DNA of 62,834 nucleotides from a virus, in IMG/VR virus record IMGVR_UViG_3300025626_000025, positions 1 through 62,834 of that record. The stretch is one strand, 5' to 3'. A program made the position numbers and the translations under genes. The notes beneath the pieces were generated by a model, which was not told the origin of the DNA, did no database searches, and saw only the letters and a list, made by a program, of their open reading frames with translations. This document shows, piece after piece, positions 2,856 to 14,108 of the stretch (position 1 is the first letter of the stretch; every line of letters begins with the position of its first letter).

Positions 2856-3827
2856 ATGATGAATGGTGATGACATGGCTATAGATGCAAAGACGAATGAA
2901 GTATTGTGGGTCGAGAAGTACAGACCACAGCGAGTAGATGATACGATCCTCAGCCCAAAGCTGAAGACAACTTTTAAGAAGTTTATCGAAGACGATAGTG
3001 TACCAAACCTTTTACTCTCTGGTGGCCCAGGTGTTGGTAAAACAACTGTCGCAAAAGCTATGCTTGATGAAATGGGTTGTGATTACATTATCAAGAACGG
3101 CTCTTTGGATATGAGCATCGACACCCTACGTTATGATATCTCTGCATATGCATCCGCTGTATCTCTTGCAGGTGGTCGTAAGTATGTGATCCTTGATGAA
3201 GCAGACTATCTAAGTGCTTCTAAAATCCAACCAGCACTACGCAACTTTATCGAAGAATACTCTTCAAACTGTGGGTTTATCTTCACTTGTAATTTTAAGA
3301 ACCGTATGATTGCGCCACTTCGTAGTCGTTTGTCTGAAGTAGACTTTACCATTCAGAATAGTGATAAGCCAAAACTAGCGGCTTCGTTCTACAAACGTGT
3401 ACTAGAAATCTTAAACAACGAACAGGTAGACTACGACAACAAGGTTGTTGCCAAGGTTGTGGAACAACACTTCCCTGATTTCCGTCGTGTTCTGACTGAA
3501 CTGCAATCATATGCGGCTGCTGGCAAAATTGATGAAGGTATCTTTGTTAATCTCAAGCAAGAGTCTCTTGAAGAAGCATTCCGTATGTTGAAGGTAAAAG
3601 ACTGGACTAATCTACGTAAATGGGTTGCAAAGAACTCTGACCAAGACATGAATGAGATGTTCCGTCGTATCTATGATATGGCACAAGATAAGGTCGAGTT
3701 GCGTAGTCTCCCAGGGTTTGTGGTGACTATTGCTGATTACATGGATAAGGCTACACGTTGCGCTGACCTAGAAATCAATATGGTTGCGTTTATGTCTGAA
3801 GTTATGATGGAAGCTGAGTACAAGTAA
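2856..3827 (+). CDS. 44: clamp loader large subunit, AAA+ ATPase (T4 gp44)
   Basis: This 323-residue AAA+ ATPase loads the gp45 clamp onto primer-template DNA together with gp62. Visible motifs, counting from ATG 2856, are the N-terminal VEKYRPQ, Walker A GGPGVGKT (56-63), Walker B YVILDEADYL (110-119) and the LRSRL arginine-finger motif around 155-159. Length and motif order agree with T4 gp44 (319 residues). The start could be 2856 or the in-frame ATG at 2874 (MAIDAKTNEVLWVEKYRPQ). The second gives a length closer to T4, but both have weak ribosome sites behind a leader hairpin. The stop overlaps the start of the next gene. Confidence 0.9.
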   Translation: MMNGDDMAIDAKTNEVLWVEKYRPQRVDDTILSPKLKTTFKKFIEDDSVPNLLLSGGPGVGKTTVAKAMLDEMGCDYIIKNGSLDMSIDTLRYDISAYASAVSLAGGRKYVILDEADYLSASKIQPALRNFIEEYSSNCGFIFTCNFKNRMIAPLRSRLSEVDFTIQNSDKPKLAASFYKRVLEILNNEQVDYDNKVVAKVVEQHFPDFRRVLTELQSYAAAGKIDEGIFVNLKQESLEEAFRMLKVKDWTNLRKWVAKNSDQDMNEMFRRIYDMAQDKVELRSLPGFVVTIADYMDKATRCADLEINMVAFMSEVMMEAEYK

Positions 3828-11590: not shown

Positions 11591-11598
11591 TATAAATA
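11591..11598 (+). promoter_or_regulatory. T4-type late promoter before the RelA/SpoT-like gene
   Basis: Exact TATAAATA, 33 bases before the start at 11631. It is the only exact late octamer seen inside the early-type gene array. Confidence 0.7.
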
Positions 11599-11630: not shown

Positions 11631-12491
11631 ATGCTAAACTTTAAAAGCTTTATTAACGAGAATTCAGCCGAATGGGGCGACATTGAAAACATTGATGCAA
11701 TCCTAGAAAGCATCTGTTTAGAGCTTCTTGCAGAAAATGGTTTGATTGAAAACCTAGACGACTCCTTAATTAAAAGACTTAGCAAGAAATTGAAGCCCGC
11801 CAAAAAGACATTTTGGGCTGATGAAAAAATCAAAGATTTTACTGGTAAGAACGACAAAGAAAAAGTCGTTGCGCTCTACCAAAAGTATGAGCCTATCATT
11901 AAAGACCGCCTCAAGAAATACGAATCTGGTTTGAAGACTGCGCTCAAGGGTGTTCAGAACGCGAAGATTATGGTTGATGTTAAGAAGCTTAGGGCATTCG
12001 TAAACAAGACTGTTGACCGTGGTAAAGACCCATCAAAGATGAATGATTGGTTGCGTGGTTCAATCCTAGTAAACGACGAAAAAGATATCGGTGTTGTTTC
12101 AAAAAACATTTTCAAAGCATTTAAATCAGTATCAGAGTTTGACCCAAAAGAACGTGGTGGCGACAAACAGTTTGGCTATTACGGTTCTGTACACTTTTCA
12201 GTTGACGTTGATGGTGTGAACACAGAAATTCAATTGATGACTAAGAAGCTTTATTCTGCAAAGAAAATTGCGGGTGGTCAGTATGATGACTTCAGATCAG
12301 CATCAGACGAAATCAAAGGTTCTAAAGAAACTCAAAAACTATTGCGTCACGGCAAGAGAGCATTTGACAAAGGCAACGCCAGAGGTGGTGGTGCAGGAAT
12401 CAATGTTGATAAGCAGAAATCAAAGTATATAAAGACTTCTGGATTGTCGCAAATGGATCGTCAGACACGAAGAAAGTTGAAGGGTAAGTAA
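11631..12491 (+). CDS. RelA/SpoT-like alarmone synthetase domain with capsid-targeting-like leader
   Basis: This 286-residue protein has the pattern of a RelA/SpoT nucleotidyltransferase (alarmone synthetase). VKKLRAFVNKTVDRG (117-131) and LRGSILVND (141-149) match the part between substrate-binding loop and core strand. FGYYGSVHFSV (181-191) matches the conserved GYxSxH, and NTEIQLMT (197-204) matches the EIQ strand that carries the catalytic Glu. It would transfer pyrophosphate from ATP to a nucleotide or, as in some toxic small synthetases, to tRNA. The N terminus MLNFKSFINEN looks like a T4 capsid-targeting peptide, with a prohead-protease-like INE site. GAGGA precedes ATG 11631. An HD-hydrolase gene follows 400 bases later. 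The C-terminal 65 residues are basic. Confidence 0.65.
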   Translation: MLNFKSFINENSAEWGDIENIDAILESICLELLAENGLIENLDDSLIKRLSKKLKPAKKTFWADEKIKDFTGKNDKEKVVALYQKYEPIIKDRLKKYESGLKTALKGVQNAKIMVDVKKLRAFVNKTVDRGKDPSKMNDWLRGSILVNDEKDIGVVSKNIFKAFKSVSEFDPKERGGDKQFGYYGSVHFSVDVDGVNTEIQLMTKKLYSAKKIAGGQYDDFRSASDEIKGSKETQKLLRHGKRAFDKGNARGGGAGINVDKQKSKYIKTSGLSQMDRQTRRKLKGK

Positions 12492-12497
12492 AAAAGA

Positions 12498-12528
12498 CCT
12501 TGACACCCAAGGTTGCATTGAGTATCTT
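12498..12528 (+). promoter_or_regulatory. sigma-70-type promoter in a hairpin
   Basis: Stem CCTTG (12498-12502) / CAAGG (12508-12512) overlaps TTGACA (12500-12505); 17-bp spacer; TATCTT (12523-12528). No T-run follows the stem, so it is a weak terminator at best. Confidence 0.5.
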
Positions 12529-12553
12529 TCTACAGTAAGAGAAAGAATTTGTT

Positions 12554-12886
12554 ATGGAAATAGAAGTAGATCATGAGGGTTTTGTATACTGCGTTGAAGC
12601 AGTAGATAACAAGATCGTCATGTATAAAAATGACATAGACGAATGGATGGGTGACATTGAACATATCAAGGTGTATACCATTGAAGGGGATACACCTAAC
12701 CCTGTTGGACTGTATCGTAAGCTGACAAAAGCTTTTGTAGAACTTGTTAAGGCTGATCGTGCAAAGTGGTATATGTTTGATGTGACTGATGAAAAACGTG
12801 CTAATCTGTATGAACGTGCAGGAAAACAAATTAAGGGGTACAGCTTTCAACGTGCTGATAAATGCTTCTATCTTTACAAGGAATAA
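12554..12886 (+). CDS. hypothetical protein between synthetase and hydrolase genes
   Basis: This 110-residue protein starts MEIEVDHEGFVYCVEAVDNKIVMYKNDIDEW and is mixed beta/alpha, ending GYSFQRADKCFYLYKE. I do not recognise a family. It lies between the RelA/SpoT-like and the HD-hydrolase genes and is driven by a promoter at 12500, probably with the hydrolase gene, since only three bases separate its stop from the next start. The ribosome site before it is weak (GAAAGAA). Confidence 0.5.
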   Translation: MEIEVDHEGFVYCVEAVDNKIVMYKNDIDEWMGDIEHIKVYTIEGDTPNPVGLYRKLTKAFVELVKADRAKWYMFDVTDEKRANLYERAGKQIKGYSFQRADKCFYLYKE

Positions 12887-12889
12887 GAA

Positions 12890-13477
12890 ATGAAAAGGTT
12901 CAAAGATTACGTCACGGAGCAATTAGCAGAGGCTAAGGGTGCAAGCTTGACGCAATCACAGAAAGCCATTAGGTTTGCGGCTAATGCTCATAGGAAGCAG
13001 ACTCGTACTGATGGCAAGTCTTACATTACCCACCCTGTAGAAGTTGCTAAAATTGTAAAGCAGTTTAAGAAGTCTCATAACATAGAAGCTTTGATCAGTG
13101 CCGCATACCTTCACGATACAGTAGAAGACACCGACACTGAGCAAGAAGACATCACAAAGATGTTTGGTGGCTTGGTAGCCTCTATGGTTAAAGAACTGAC
13201 TTCTGATGAACAAAGCAAAGAATTCAAAGCAAGTAAAGCAGATTACCTAAGTGCTAAAATGTCTAGCATGAGCAGTTGGGCTTTGGTTGTTAAGTTGGCA
13301 GATCGTCTTCACAACGTAAGTGATCTGAACACAGCAAAGACTAAAAAATGGGCATCGAATTATAAAAAACAAACCACTCAGATTATGGATGAATTGGAAA
13401 AGAACCGTACACTGACTGGAACTCACAGGAAGATGATAAAAGCTATCCGTGTGAAACTTAAGGAGTTTGAAGAATGA
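12890..13477 (+). CDS. SpoT/MESH1-like HD hydrolase with capsid-targeting-like leader
   Basis: This 195-residue HD-domain protein matches the (p)ppGpp hydrolase half of SpoT and the stand-alone MESH1 type. Visible motifs are AANAHRKQTRTDGKSYITHPVEVA (His34 and His48), AAYLHDTVEDTDT (His75-Asp76, the HD pair, with the Glu-Asp of VED), a FGGLVASMVKELT segment, and VVKLADRLHNV (Asp138, Asn142). It would remove the 3'-pyrophosphate of alarmones using a metal ion. The first 15 residues, MKRFKDYVTEQLAEA, do not belong to the HD fold and resemble a capsid-targeting sequence ending in the cleavage motif LAE. It lies close to a synthetase-like gene and overlaps the next start by four bases. Confidence 0.75.
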   Translation: MKRFKDYVTEQLAEAKGASLTQSQKAIRFAANAHRKQTRTDGKSYITHPVEVAKIVKQFKKSHNIEALISAAYLHDTVEDTDTEQEDITKMFGGLVASMVKELTSDEQSKEFKASKADYLSAKMSSMSSWALVVKLADRLHNVSDLNTAKTKKWASNYKKQTTQIMDELEKNRTLTGTHRKMIKAIRVKLKEFEE

Positions 13478-13884
13478 AAAATTTTAAACAACACTTGGCT
13501 GAGGCTGAAGCTAAATCATGTGACTTGATTGGCATGAAACAGATCAAGCAGTTTGAAAAGATTGTTGATCAACTCTTTAAGAAGTACGATATTGACTTCA
13601 ACTTCACACGACACTTTGCTGATCGTATGGGCGATGAACGTAATACTCCTTGTATTAGCCTTAAAGAATTGGCTGATTTCATCAAGAAGGTTTATGCACA
13701 GAAAGGCAAGTCTATTAAAGATGTTGCGGGTGCTGAGGCTGTTCTTAAAGACATCCAAAAAGATTTGAACATTCCAGTTGCAGTTACATATGACAGACGT
13801 AATGACGAATTCGACGTTGTTATGAAAACAATTATGCGCAAAAAGAATTTCAGAAGCCCAGATAAATTTATCAATTATAAGTAA
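13474..13884 (+). CDS. conserved phage protein with capsid-targeting-like leader
   Basis: This 136-residue protein starts MKNFKQHLAEAEAK, again with a prohead-protease-like LAE site, and overlaps the hydrolase gene (ATGA). The body has NFTRHFADRMGDERNTPCISLKELADFIKKVY followed by IPVAVTYDRRNDEFDVVMKTIMRKKNF. Such proteins, with a HF-DR-D-RN motif and a TIMRKK-F ending, are frequent in phages; the shape recalls small RNase-like folds such as RelE/BrnT types, but no activity is shown. It is the third neighbouring protein with this type of leader. Confidence 0.6.
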   Translation: MKNFKQHLAEAEAKSCDLIGMKQIKQFEKIVDQLFKKYDIDFNFTRHFADRMGDERNTPCISLKELADFIKKVYAQKGKSIKDVAGAEAVLKDIQKDLNIPVAVTYDRRNDEFDVVMKTIMRKKNFRSPDKFINYK

Positions 13885-13891
13885 AAAAGAC

Positions 13892-13920
13892 TTGACAAGT
13901 ATCACTATCTGTGGTATAAT
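13892..13920 (+). promoter_or_regulatory. perfect consensus sigma-70 promoter
   Basis: TTGACA (13892-13897), 17-bp spacer, TATAAT (13915-13920). No open reading frame follows before the next promoter at 14080, so it should drive a non-coding RNA. Confidence 0.88.
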
Positions 13921-13963
13921 AGGGTATCCCTTATGATAATAAATGATTCTATTTAAGAACTTA

Positions 13964-14044
13964 TGTCAGGTAGGTTTACTAATCCAATGGATATCTAGGC
14001 GTCATATCATGGATGATTAAGGTTCAATTCCTTAACTGACACCA
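13964..14044 (+). ncRNA. tRNA-like non-coding RNA
   Basis: Downstream of a perfect promoter lies an 81-base segment with tRNA features. TGTCAG (13964-13969) pairs with CTGACA (14036-14041), followed directly by CCA. A canonical T-arm is formed by TAAGG, loop TTCAATT and CCTTA. Between them GATAT (13990-13994) pairs with ATATC, and ATCCA pairs with TGGAT, giving a long middle arm. It is not a normal tRNA: the would-be anticodon loop has nine bases (CTAGGCGTC), the D-arm is poor, and CCA follows the acceptor stem without a discriminator base. It could be a degenerate tRNA, a tRNA mimic or another small RNA. Confidence 0.4.
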
Positions 14045-14075
14045 ATCTTAATTAAGTTAGAATAAAGTTACTTTA

Positions 14076-14108
14076 GTGCTTGACAGCACCCTTTTTTGAT
14101 TCTATAAC
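14076..14108 (+). promoter_or_regulatory. fused terminator/promoter element 3
   Basis: Stem GTGC (14076-14079) / GCAC (14086-14089), loop exactly TTGACA (14080-14085), T-run (14092-14097), then TATAAC (14103-14108) at 17 bp. It would end the tRNA-like transcript and start the next gene. The part from TTGACAG to TATAACATAT closely repeats element 1. Confidence 0.7.

Follow-up and report, generated by a model that had tools for sequence, protein, structure and literature searches.

Probable T4-type capsid-targeting leaders on predicted alarmone-family enzymes of an aquatic T4-like phage

Packaged phage proteins, established or predicted, are known already from the internal proteins of T4, from T4 Alt and from the polyvalent proteins. 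In the T4 leader, residues 4 and 7 govern targeting and residues 8 and 10 processing, and gp21 cuts after L/I-x-E (PMC9026906). IP1–3 of T4 are small inhibitors of a nuclease, GmrSD (PMC12373910). Virion-delivered RelA/SpoT domains have been predicted earlier in MuF-type polyvalent proteins (Iyer et al., 2017; PMC5512222). Virion enzymes of aquatic phages have also been noted before, and were left unexplained or suspected to be contaminants. The novelty lies in how these elements are combined: enzymes of the alarmone family carry T4-type leaders, the phages are aquatic and T4-like, and similar sites occur where the domains of polyproteins join. In a search confined to the open literature, no paper was found that connects capsid-targeting leaders to either cyanophages or alarmone enzymes.

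The DNA analysed, referred to below as the window, is a stretch of 62,834 nt (positions 1–62,834 of IMG/VR record IMGVR_UViG_3300025626_000025) in which 61 genes were counted; its source is a T4-like, aquatic phage. The original prediction described three adjacent genes whose products begin with capsid-targeting-like peptides. The three ORFs and their N termini were confirmed from the ORF translations, and the three leader genes are neighbours (Table 1), but they are not strictly adjacent, as a further ORF separates the synthetase-like gene from the HD gene. The same leader was sought in the other genes of the window and was found in none besides these three. Megablast of the region against phages gave no match. 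Scans of viral contigs recovered 72 loci for the third protein, 515 for the HD protein, of which 80 were kept, and 11 for the synthetase-like protein; for the last two, single-protein scans found only near-identical contigs, and alignment-based scans found the rest.

Table 1. Features of the leader locus in the window
Feature	Position	Strand	Basis
T4-type late promoter TATAAATA, 32 nt upstream of the first leader gene	11591..11598	+	Exact motif
Leader 1, MLNFKSFINE; predicted cut after I-N-E (next residue N)	11631..11660	+	Sequence
Synthetase-like protein, RelA/SpoT fold, 286 aa, conserved D139 and E199	11631..12491	+	Profile, AF2/Foldseek, alignment
Sigma70-like promoter, TTGACA-17-TATCTT, upstream of the middle ORF	12500..12528	+	Consensus match only
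Leaderless 110-aa ORF between leader genes 1 and 2, no function assigned	12554..12886	+	ORF call; place kept in L004 and L058
Leader 2, MKRFKDYVTEQLAE; predicted cut after L-A-E (residue 14; next residue A)	12890..12931	+	Sequence
HD hydrolase, MESH1/SpoT type, 195 aa, all active-site motifs	12890..13477	+	PF13328, MESH1 profile, alignment
Leader 3, MKNFKQHLAE; predicted cut after L-A-E (next residue A)	13474..13503	+	Sequence
Third protein ('P4' domain), 136 aa, fold unassigned	13474..13884	+	Family search

The leaders of 10 residues match the register of T4 IPIII (MKTYQEFIAE), with an aromatic residue at position 4 (F in all three), an aromatic residue or His at 7, L/I/V at 8 and E at 10. 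The key residues of a T4-type internal protein (4, 7, 8 and 10) are thus in place, and a predicted L/I/V-x-E cleavage site is found in all three leader proteins. It had been proposed that the leaders end in LAE or INE. This is true of the first and third proteins, but residues 8–10 of the HD protein read V-T-E, and the canonical L-A-E lies at residues 12–14; the near-identical relative L058 has V-T-D instead of V-T-E and retains LAE↓A (the arrow marks the cut). The leader had also been described as amphipathic. This is weak evidence, as the hydrophobic moment is not above background, T4 IPIII itself included, and the amphipathic helix was dropped as support.

Many genes of such phages begin with MK and often have F/Y and K close behind, so that chance or N-terminal codon bias might be taken as the cause of three look-alike starts. 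Across the window, six relatives and part of T4, a strict leader regex matched none of 5,204 internal Met residues; at the 95% upper bound of that rate, three leaders in the 61 window genes have P ~7e-6. Judged by position-wise N-terminal composition, 0.10 leaders were expected and 14 seen among 981 genes of the window and its relatives. When N termini were picked by residues 1–7 alone, L/I/V/M stood at position 8 in 73–82% and E at position 10 in 56–64%; given residues 4, 5 and 7, E at position 10 reaches 50%, against a background of 4.7%. The link between residues 1–7 and L/I-x-E at 8–10 is not circular, because the cleavage site was not used in selection. The leader is also kept in many homologs. 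Chance is already contradicted by the internal-Met, residue 1–7 and composition tests, and is almost certainly not the explanation.

The protease named in the original prediction, gp21, was found in relatives but not in the window. It is encoded in 5/5 of the searched relatives longer than 100 kb, the shorter fragments being without it, and also in phiM12, Melnitz, V45v66, SRB7757, OLIVR5 and a Vibrio phage, with T4 as the positive control. No gp21 was found in the window (62.8 kb) or in a near-identical 80 kb contig; both are fragments, and the absence from the window may be what is expected of one. The N-terminal maturation sites of gp23 in these phages align with T4 FLTE↓A. Read from the alignment, they would be SLTE↓A, QLTE↓A, LLME↓T, MLNE↓T, LLGE↓A, LLQE↓A and FLVE↓A, so that the major capsid protein of the relatives appears to mature at L-x-E↓A/T/S. 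The leaders are therefore in line with the cleavage preference expected of the protease in this group. The gp21 of SRB7757 (PV062637.1, 3493–5046) matches in two separate pieces of one 583-aa frame; an intein or another insert may lie between them.

The HD protein matches HD_4 of Pfam (PF13328, 5e-20), and its family profile matches MESH1 in the PDB (3nr1, 2e-28) as well as small alarmone hydrolases, one of which acts on (p)ppApp. The HxxQxR, HD, ED and DRxxN motifs of a MESH1-like domain are present, and the proposed identity holds at family level (MESH1/SpoT type). Leaderless homologs in Vibrio, Burkholderia, Agrobacterium and huge phages begin at the domain itself, which supports the view that the leader is an add-on to domains that occur elsewhere without it; some of these, in Vibrio phages, lack the leader where gp21 is present. 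In leader-tagged relatives a second L-N-E often precedes the HD domain (MKSFKKYIAEDTLNESALKAL...). Among 39 distinct upstream sequences, 38 have phi-x-E before the HD domain at one fixed spot, a count that does not represent independent events, as the homologs share ancestry. It ends 4 residues before the HD anchor in 35/39 and 5 residues before it in 3/39, with a variable middle residue. Twelve of the 39 are proteins of 378–1002 aa in which the HD domain lies at residue 36–711. The sole exception is the window's own HD type, where phi-x-E lies 11 residues before the anchor, not 4. Our best guess is that the HD protein would most likely break down a (p)ppNpp-type alarmone of the host at the onset of infection, or else blunt a defence that uses alarmones. 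A role in counter-defence has been suggested for alarmone enzymes of the HD type in jumbo phages (PMC7824862).

The third protein is a member of a family found widely among phages. Its AF2 model (pLDDT 57) was unusable, and a profile search of the PDB found nothing convincing. In relatives the P4 domain is either standalone with a leader or a polyprotein domain with phi-x-E before it; the E lies 12–16 residues before the anchor in leader-tagged copies and most polyproteins, and 9 residues before it in a divergent group. Fixed phi-x-E junctions are what release by a prohead protease would select, the cases being linked by shared ancestry and so not independent. The three window proteins are separate, but in some relatives several effector domains share one chain, as in polyvalent proteins; L065 is an example.

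Polyproteins of 600–1300 aa with an NMNAT-like HxGH domain first occur in L065, L051, L061, L030, L024, L242 and others. Small modules recur in them, for example CWDGYKQVGMKKKGGKMVPNCVPEE, HGAGDEGTDKLTKKYKKDTPG and KPAPGDxxAKTKxSKHTKKYKxMFGE, with phi-x-E between modules. Other leader-tagged cargo includes a SprT-like peptidase (PF10263; L004:3197–3958), a DUF6267 protein with a KxDG ligase-like motif (L102:5168–6403), a Zeta-toxin-like kinase (PF06414; L010:6541–7464) and a HAD-like phosphatase (L188:4360–4965).

The published virion proteome of S-CREM2 lists 52 virion proteins with coordinates (PMC10665884). Among 217 testable CDSs, leaders with residue 5 left free begin 5/50 virion proteins and 1/167 others (p=0.003, partly post hoc, since the regex was widened after the virion list had been seen). 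The initial regex missed four of these five leaders, which have variants at residue 5, L at 4, F at 8 or a GTG start; the widened form matches 1/3,607 internal M/V. The five listed proteins are the SAM hydrolase gp6, gp13, the APH-like kinase gp14, gp136 and the NMNAT-like gp154. A Cas9-like protein on the same list, gp12 (L244:7704–10313), carries FASFMAE↓A, a leader-like sequence, some 18 residues past the annotated start, which may be misannotated. S-SZBM1 gives a mixed picture: the published list of 30 virion proteins includes its NMNAT (MRFRQFIIE↓A) but not the leader ORFs gp191 and gp192. The authors of the S-CREM2 study consider that such virion enzymes are possibly lysate carry-over (PMC10665884), and those of the S-SCSM1 study likewise allow this. 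Homologs of the virion NMNAT (~30–45% identity) are fused with the P4 domain in twelve relatives and with HD in others, and the L065 chain holds NMNAT, P4 and HD together. Because of these fusions, the window's HD and P4 families are tied to a class of virion proteins.

The synthetase-like protein matches RelA_SpoT (PF04607) at E=7e-4, a weak match below the Pfam cut-off, and the family profile finds RSH enzymes in the PDB at 7e-5. The AF2 model is moderate (mean pLDDT 69; 78–92 over residues 81–170), and with it Foldseek finds RelP, RelQ, Tas1 and CapRel, the best hits being small alarmone synthetases (SAS) with TM 0.57–0.63 on the target. The pair expected to be catalytic, D139 and E199, does not vary in the family alignment. 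An SAS fold with the catalytic Asp and Glu is thus predicted, from a weak sequence match and the structure match, and the proposed synthetase-like identity holds at family level. The homolog in L154/L004 starts MKSFKAFMAE, and in distant phages (L160, L159 and SRB7757) the homologs begin with a leader-like stretch that ends in L-x-E. Nitratidesulfovibrio SRB7757 and Variovorax V45v66, two distant phages, each encode a leader-tagged DnaJ-domain protein close to the RelA/SpoT-like gene (L142:7028–8101, leader MKSFKEYISE↓A; L141, minus strand near 3756, MNRYESYLRE). Like SRB7757, the Sinorhizobium phage phiM12 is an isolate that carries a synthetase homolog; phiM12 also has the P4 domain. The synthetase-like protein would be the rarer, optional cargo and, as partner of the HD protein, might make or transfer a pyrophosphate for an opposite or toxic purpose.

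The exact late promoter proposed upstream of the first gene is present. The window holds 11 copies of TATAAATA against 3.6 expected, and the motif is also found between a divergent gp4-like gene and the baseplate genes. Its position upstream of the synthetase gene is conserved in L058 and L004, and it precedes 18% of leader genes versus 7% of other genes. Late production, as first proposed, would fit the promoter before the first gene, but the predicted sigma70-like promoter (Table 1) leaves room for earlier expression of the HD gene and the last gene, which may thus not be confined to the late phase; a similar sequence is present in L058, and TTGACA occurs at the same place in L004. The leader locus lies a few kb from gp2, gp4 and baseplate genes, and T4 ipI is likewise a few kb from the gp2/gp4 region. 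In L004 (64–85% identical) the order synthetase–ORF–HD–SprT–P4 is kept, with a leader of its own on every protein but that of the ORF, and the leaderless ORF is conserved in place in both L004 and L058. Downstream, window positions 13892–14090 contain a perfect sigma70-like promoter (TTGACA-17-TATAAT with TG), and the non-coding sequence behind it shows a tRNA-like end, GGTTCAATTCCTTAACTGACACCA, and a terminator-like hairpin. ARAGORN and Rfam called nothing in this stretch; the matching place in L004 looks like tRNA genes.

The proximity of the synthetase and HD genes could also indicate an intracellular toxin–antitoxin pair (a toxSAS with a small alarmone hydrolase) whose packaging is incidental or absent. 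The predicted synthetase fold matches Tas1, CapRel and SAS enzymes, the HD profile matches small alarmone hydrolases, the (p)ppApp hydrolase among them, and toxic synthetases often have small alarmone hydrolases as neighbours (PMC9765508). However, such a pair leaves unexplained the leaders on both proteins and on an unrelated third; a leaderless ORF stands between the two genes; most relatives have HD without the synthetase (at least 80 HD versus 11 synthetase loci); the first gene has a late promoter; and PADLOC finds no defence-system match. We consider this account improbable, but it is compatible with packaging, as the pair itself could be packaged.

It is very likely that the three proteins are T4-type internal head proteins: targeted by the leader, cut by a gp21-family protease, kept in the head and able to enter the cell with the DNA. 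The leader proteins would be made late. By analogy with T4 and from the comparisons above, the leader of ~10 residues would take each protein into the prohead core, and a gp21-family prohead protease would cut after (L/I/V)-x-E; the mature protein would stay in the head and might then enter the cell along with the DNA. The original prediction of capsid targeting is supported by gp21 in relatives, the gp23 sites, the link between leader and site, modularity, the phi-x-E junctions and the S-CREM2 virion mass spectrometry. The leader register, the protease in relatives and the matching gp23 and junction sites come from comparison, and the published mass spectrometry places leader proteins of a related phage in virions; together these strongly support packaging as the predicted fate. 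For the window's own phage we infer packaging, cleavage, injection and function by analogy. Both alarmone-family enzymes probably travel in the virion and may be delivered to the host together with the DNA.

The leader might instead be a core-binding peptide, the proteins staying in the head for assembly or DNA organization with no action in the host. T4 IPIII also affects head morphogenesis (PMC9026906), but the enzymatic, variable cargo (SprT-like, DnaJ, HAD-like, Zeta-like and NMNAT-like) fits host-directed effectors better, and we think a purely assembly-related role unlikely. There is about an even chance that aquatic T4-like phages widely share a general T4-type cargo system, whose prohead protease would both mature the capsid and free enzymes that are injected to reset host nucleotide signalling and defence before phage expression. 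The enzyme set considered here, drawn from leader-tagged proteins and polyproteins, comprises HD alarmone hydrolases, SAS-like synthetases, NMNAT-like, SprT-like and J-domain proteins and kinases.

If the packaging reading is correct, (p)ppGpp-type signalling enzymes would be delivered at time zero, ahead of the host response, which would bear on the defeat of the stringent response and of alarmone-based defences by phages. The leader would also allow the virion cargo of abundant aquatic phages to be predicted from sequence by a simple rule.

The locus resembles T4 IPI, IPII and IPIII in the 10-residue leader register, the L/I-x-E site and the T4-type late promoter. The T4 proteins differ in being small nuclease inhibitors, whereas the window's cargo is enzyme-like and related to alarmone metabolism, and relatives add whole polyproteins. 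T4 Alt, an ADP-ribosyltransferase, is likewise an enzyme in the head that is gp21-processed and injected; its fold is unrelated, and the window's leader is of the IP kind. Polyvalent/MuF proteins are also predicted to be packaged and injected, some have RelA/SpoT domains, and they are multidomain like the polyprotein relatives of the window's proteins. They are, however, MuF or portal fusions with their own peptidases, whereas the window has T4-type leaders and its relatives have phi-x-E sites for the prohead protease. The NMNAT, kinase and SAM hydrolase of S-CREM2, S-SZBM1 and S-SCSM1 are similar in being non-structural virion enzymes, those of S-CREM2 leader-tagged, and homologs of the NMNAT share a chain with HD and P4 domains; in the available parts of those papers, however, no alarmone enzyme is reported and the leader is not mentioned. 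Finally, MESH1 and the small alarmone hydrolases share the HD domain and its motifs with the window's hydrolase, and RelP, RelQ, Tas1 and CapRel share the SAS fold with conserved D and E, but these enzymes have no capsid leader.
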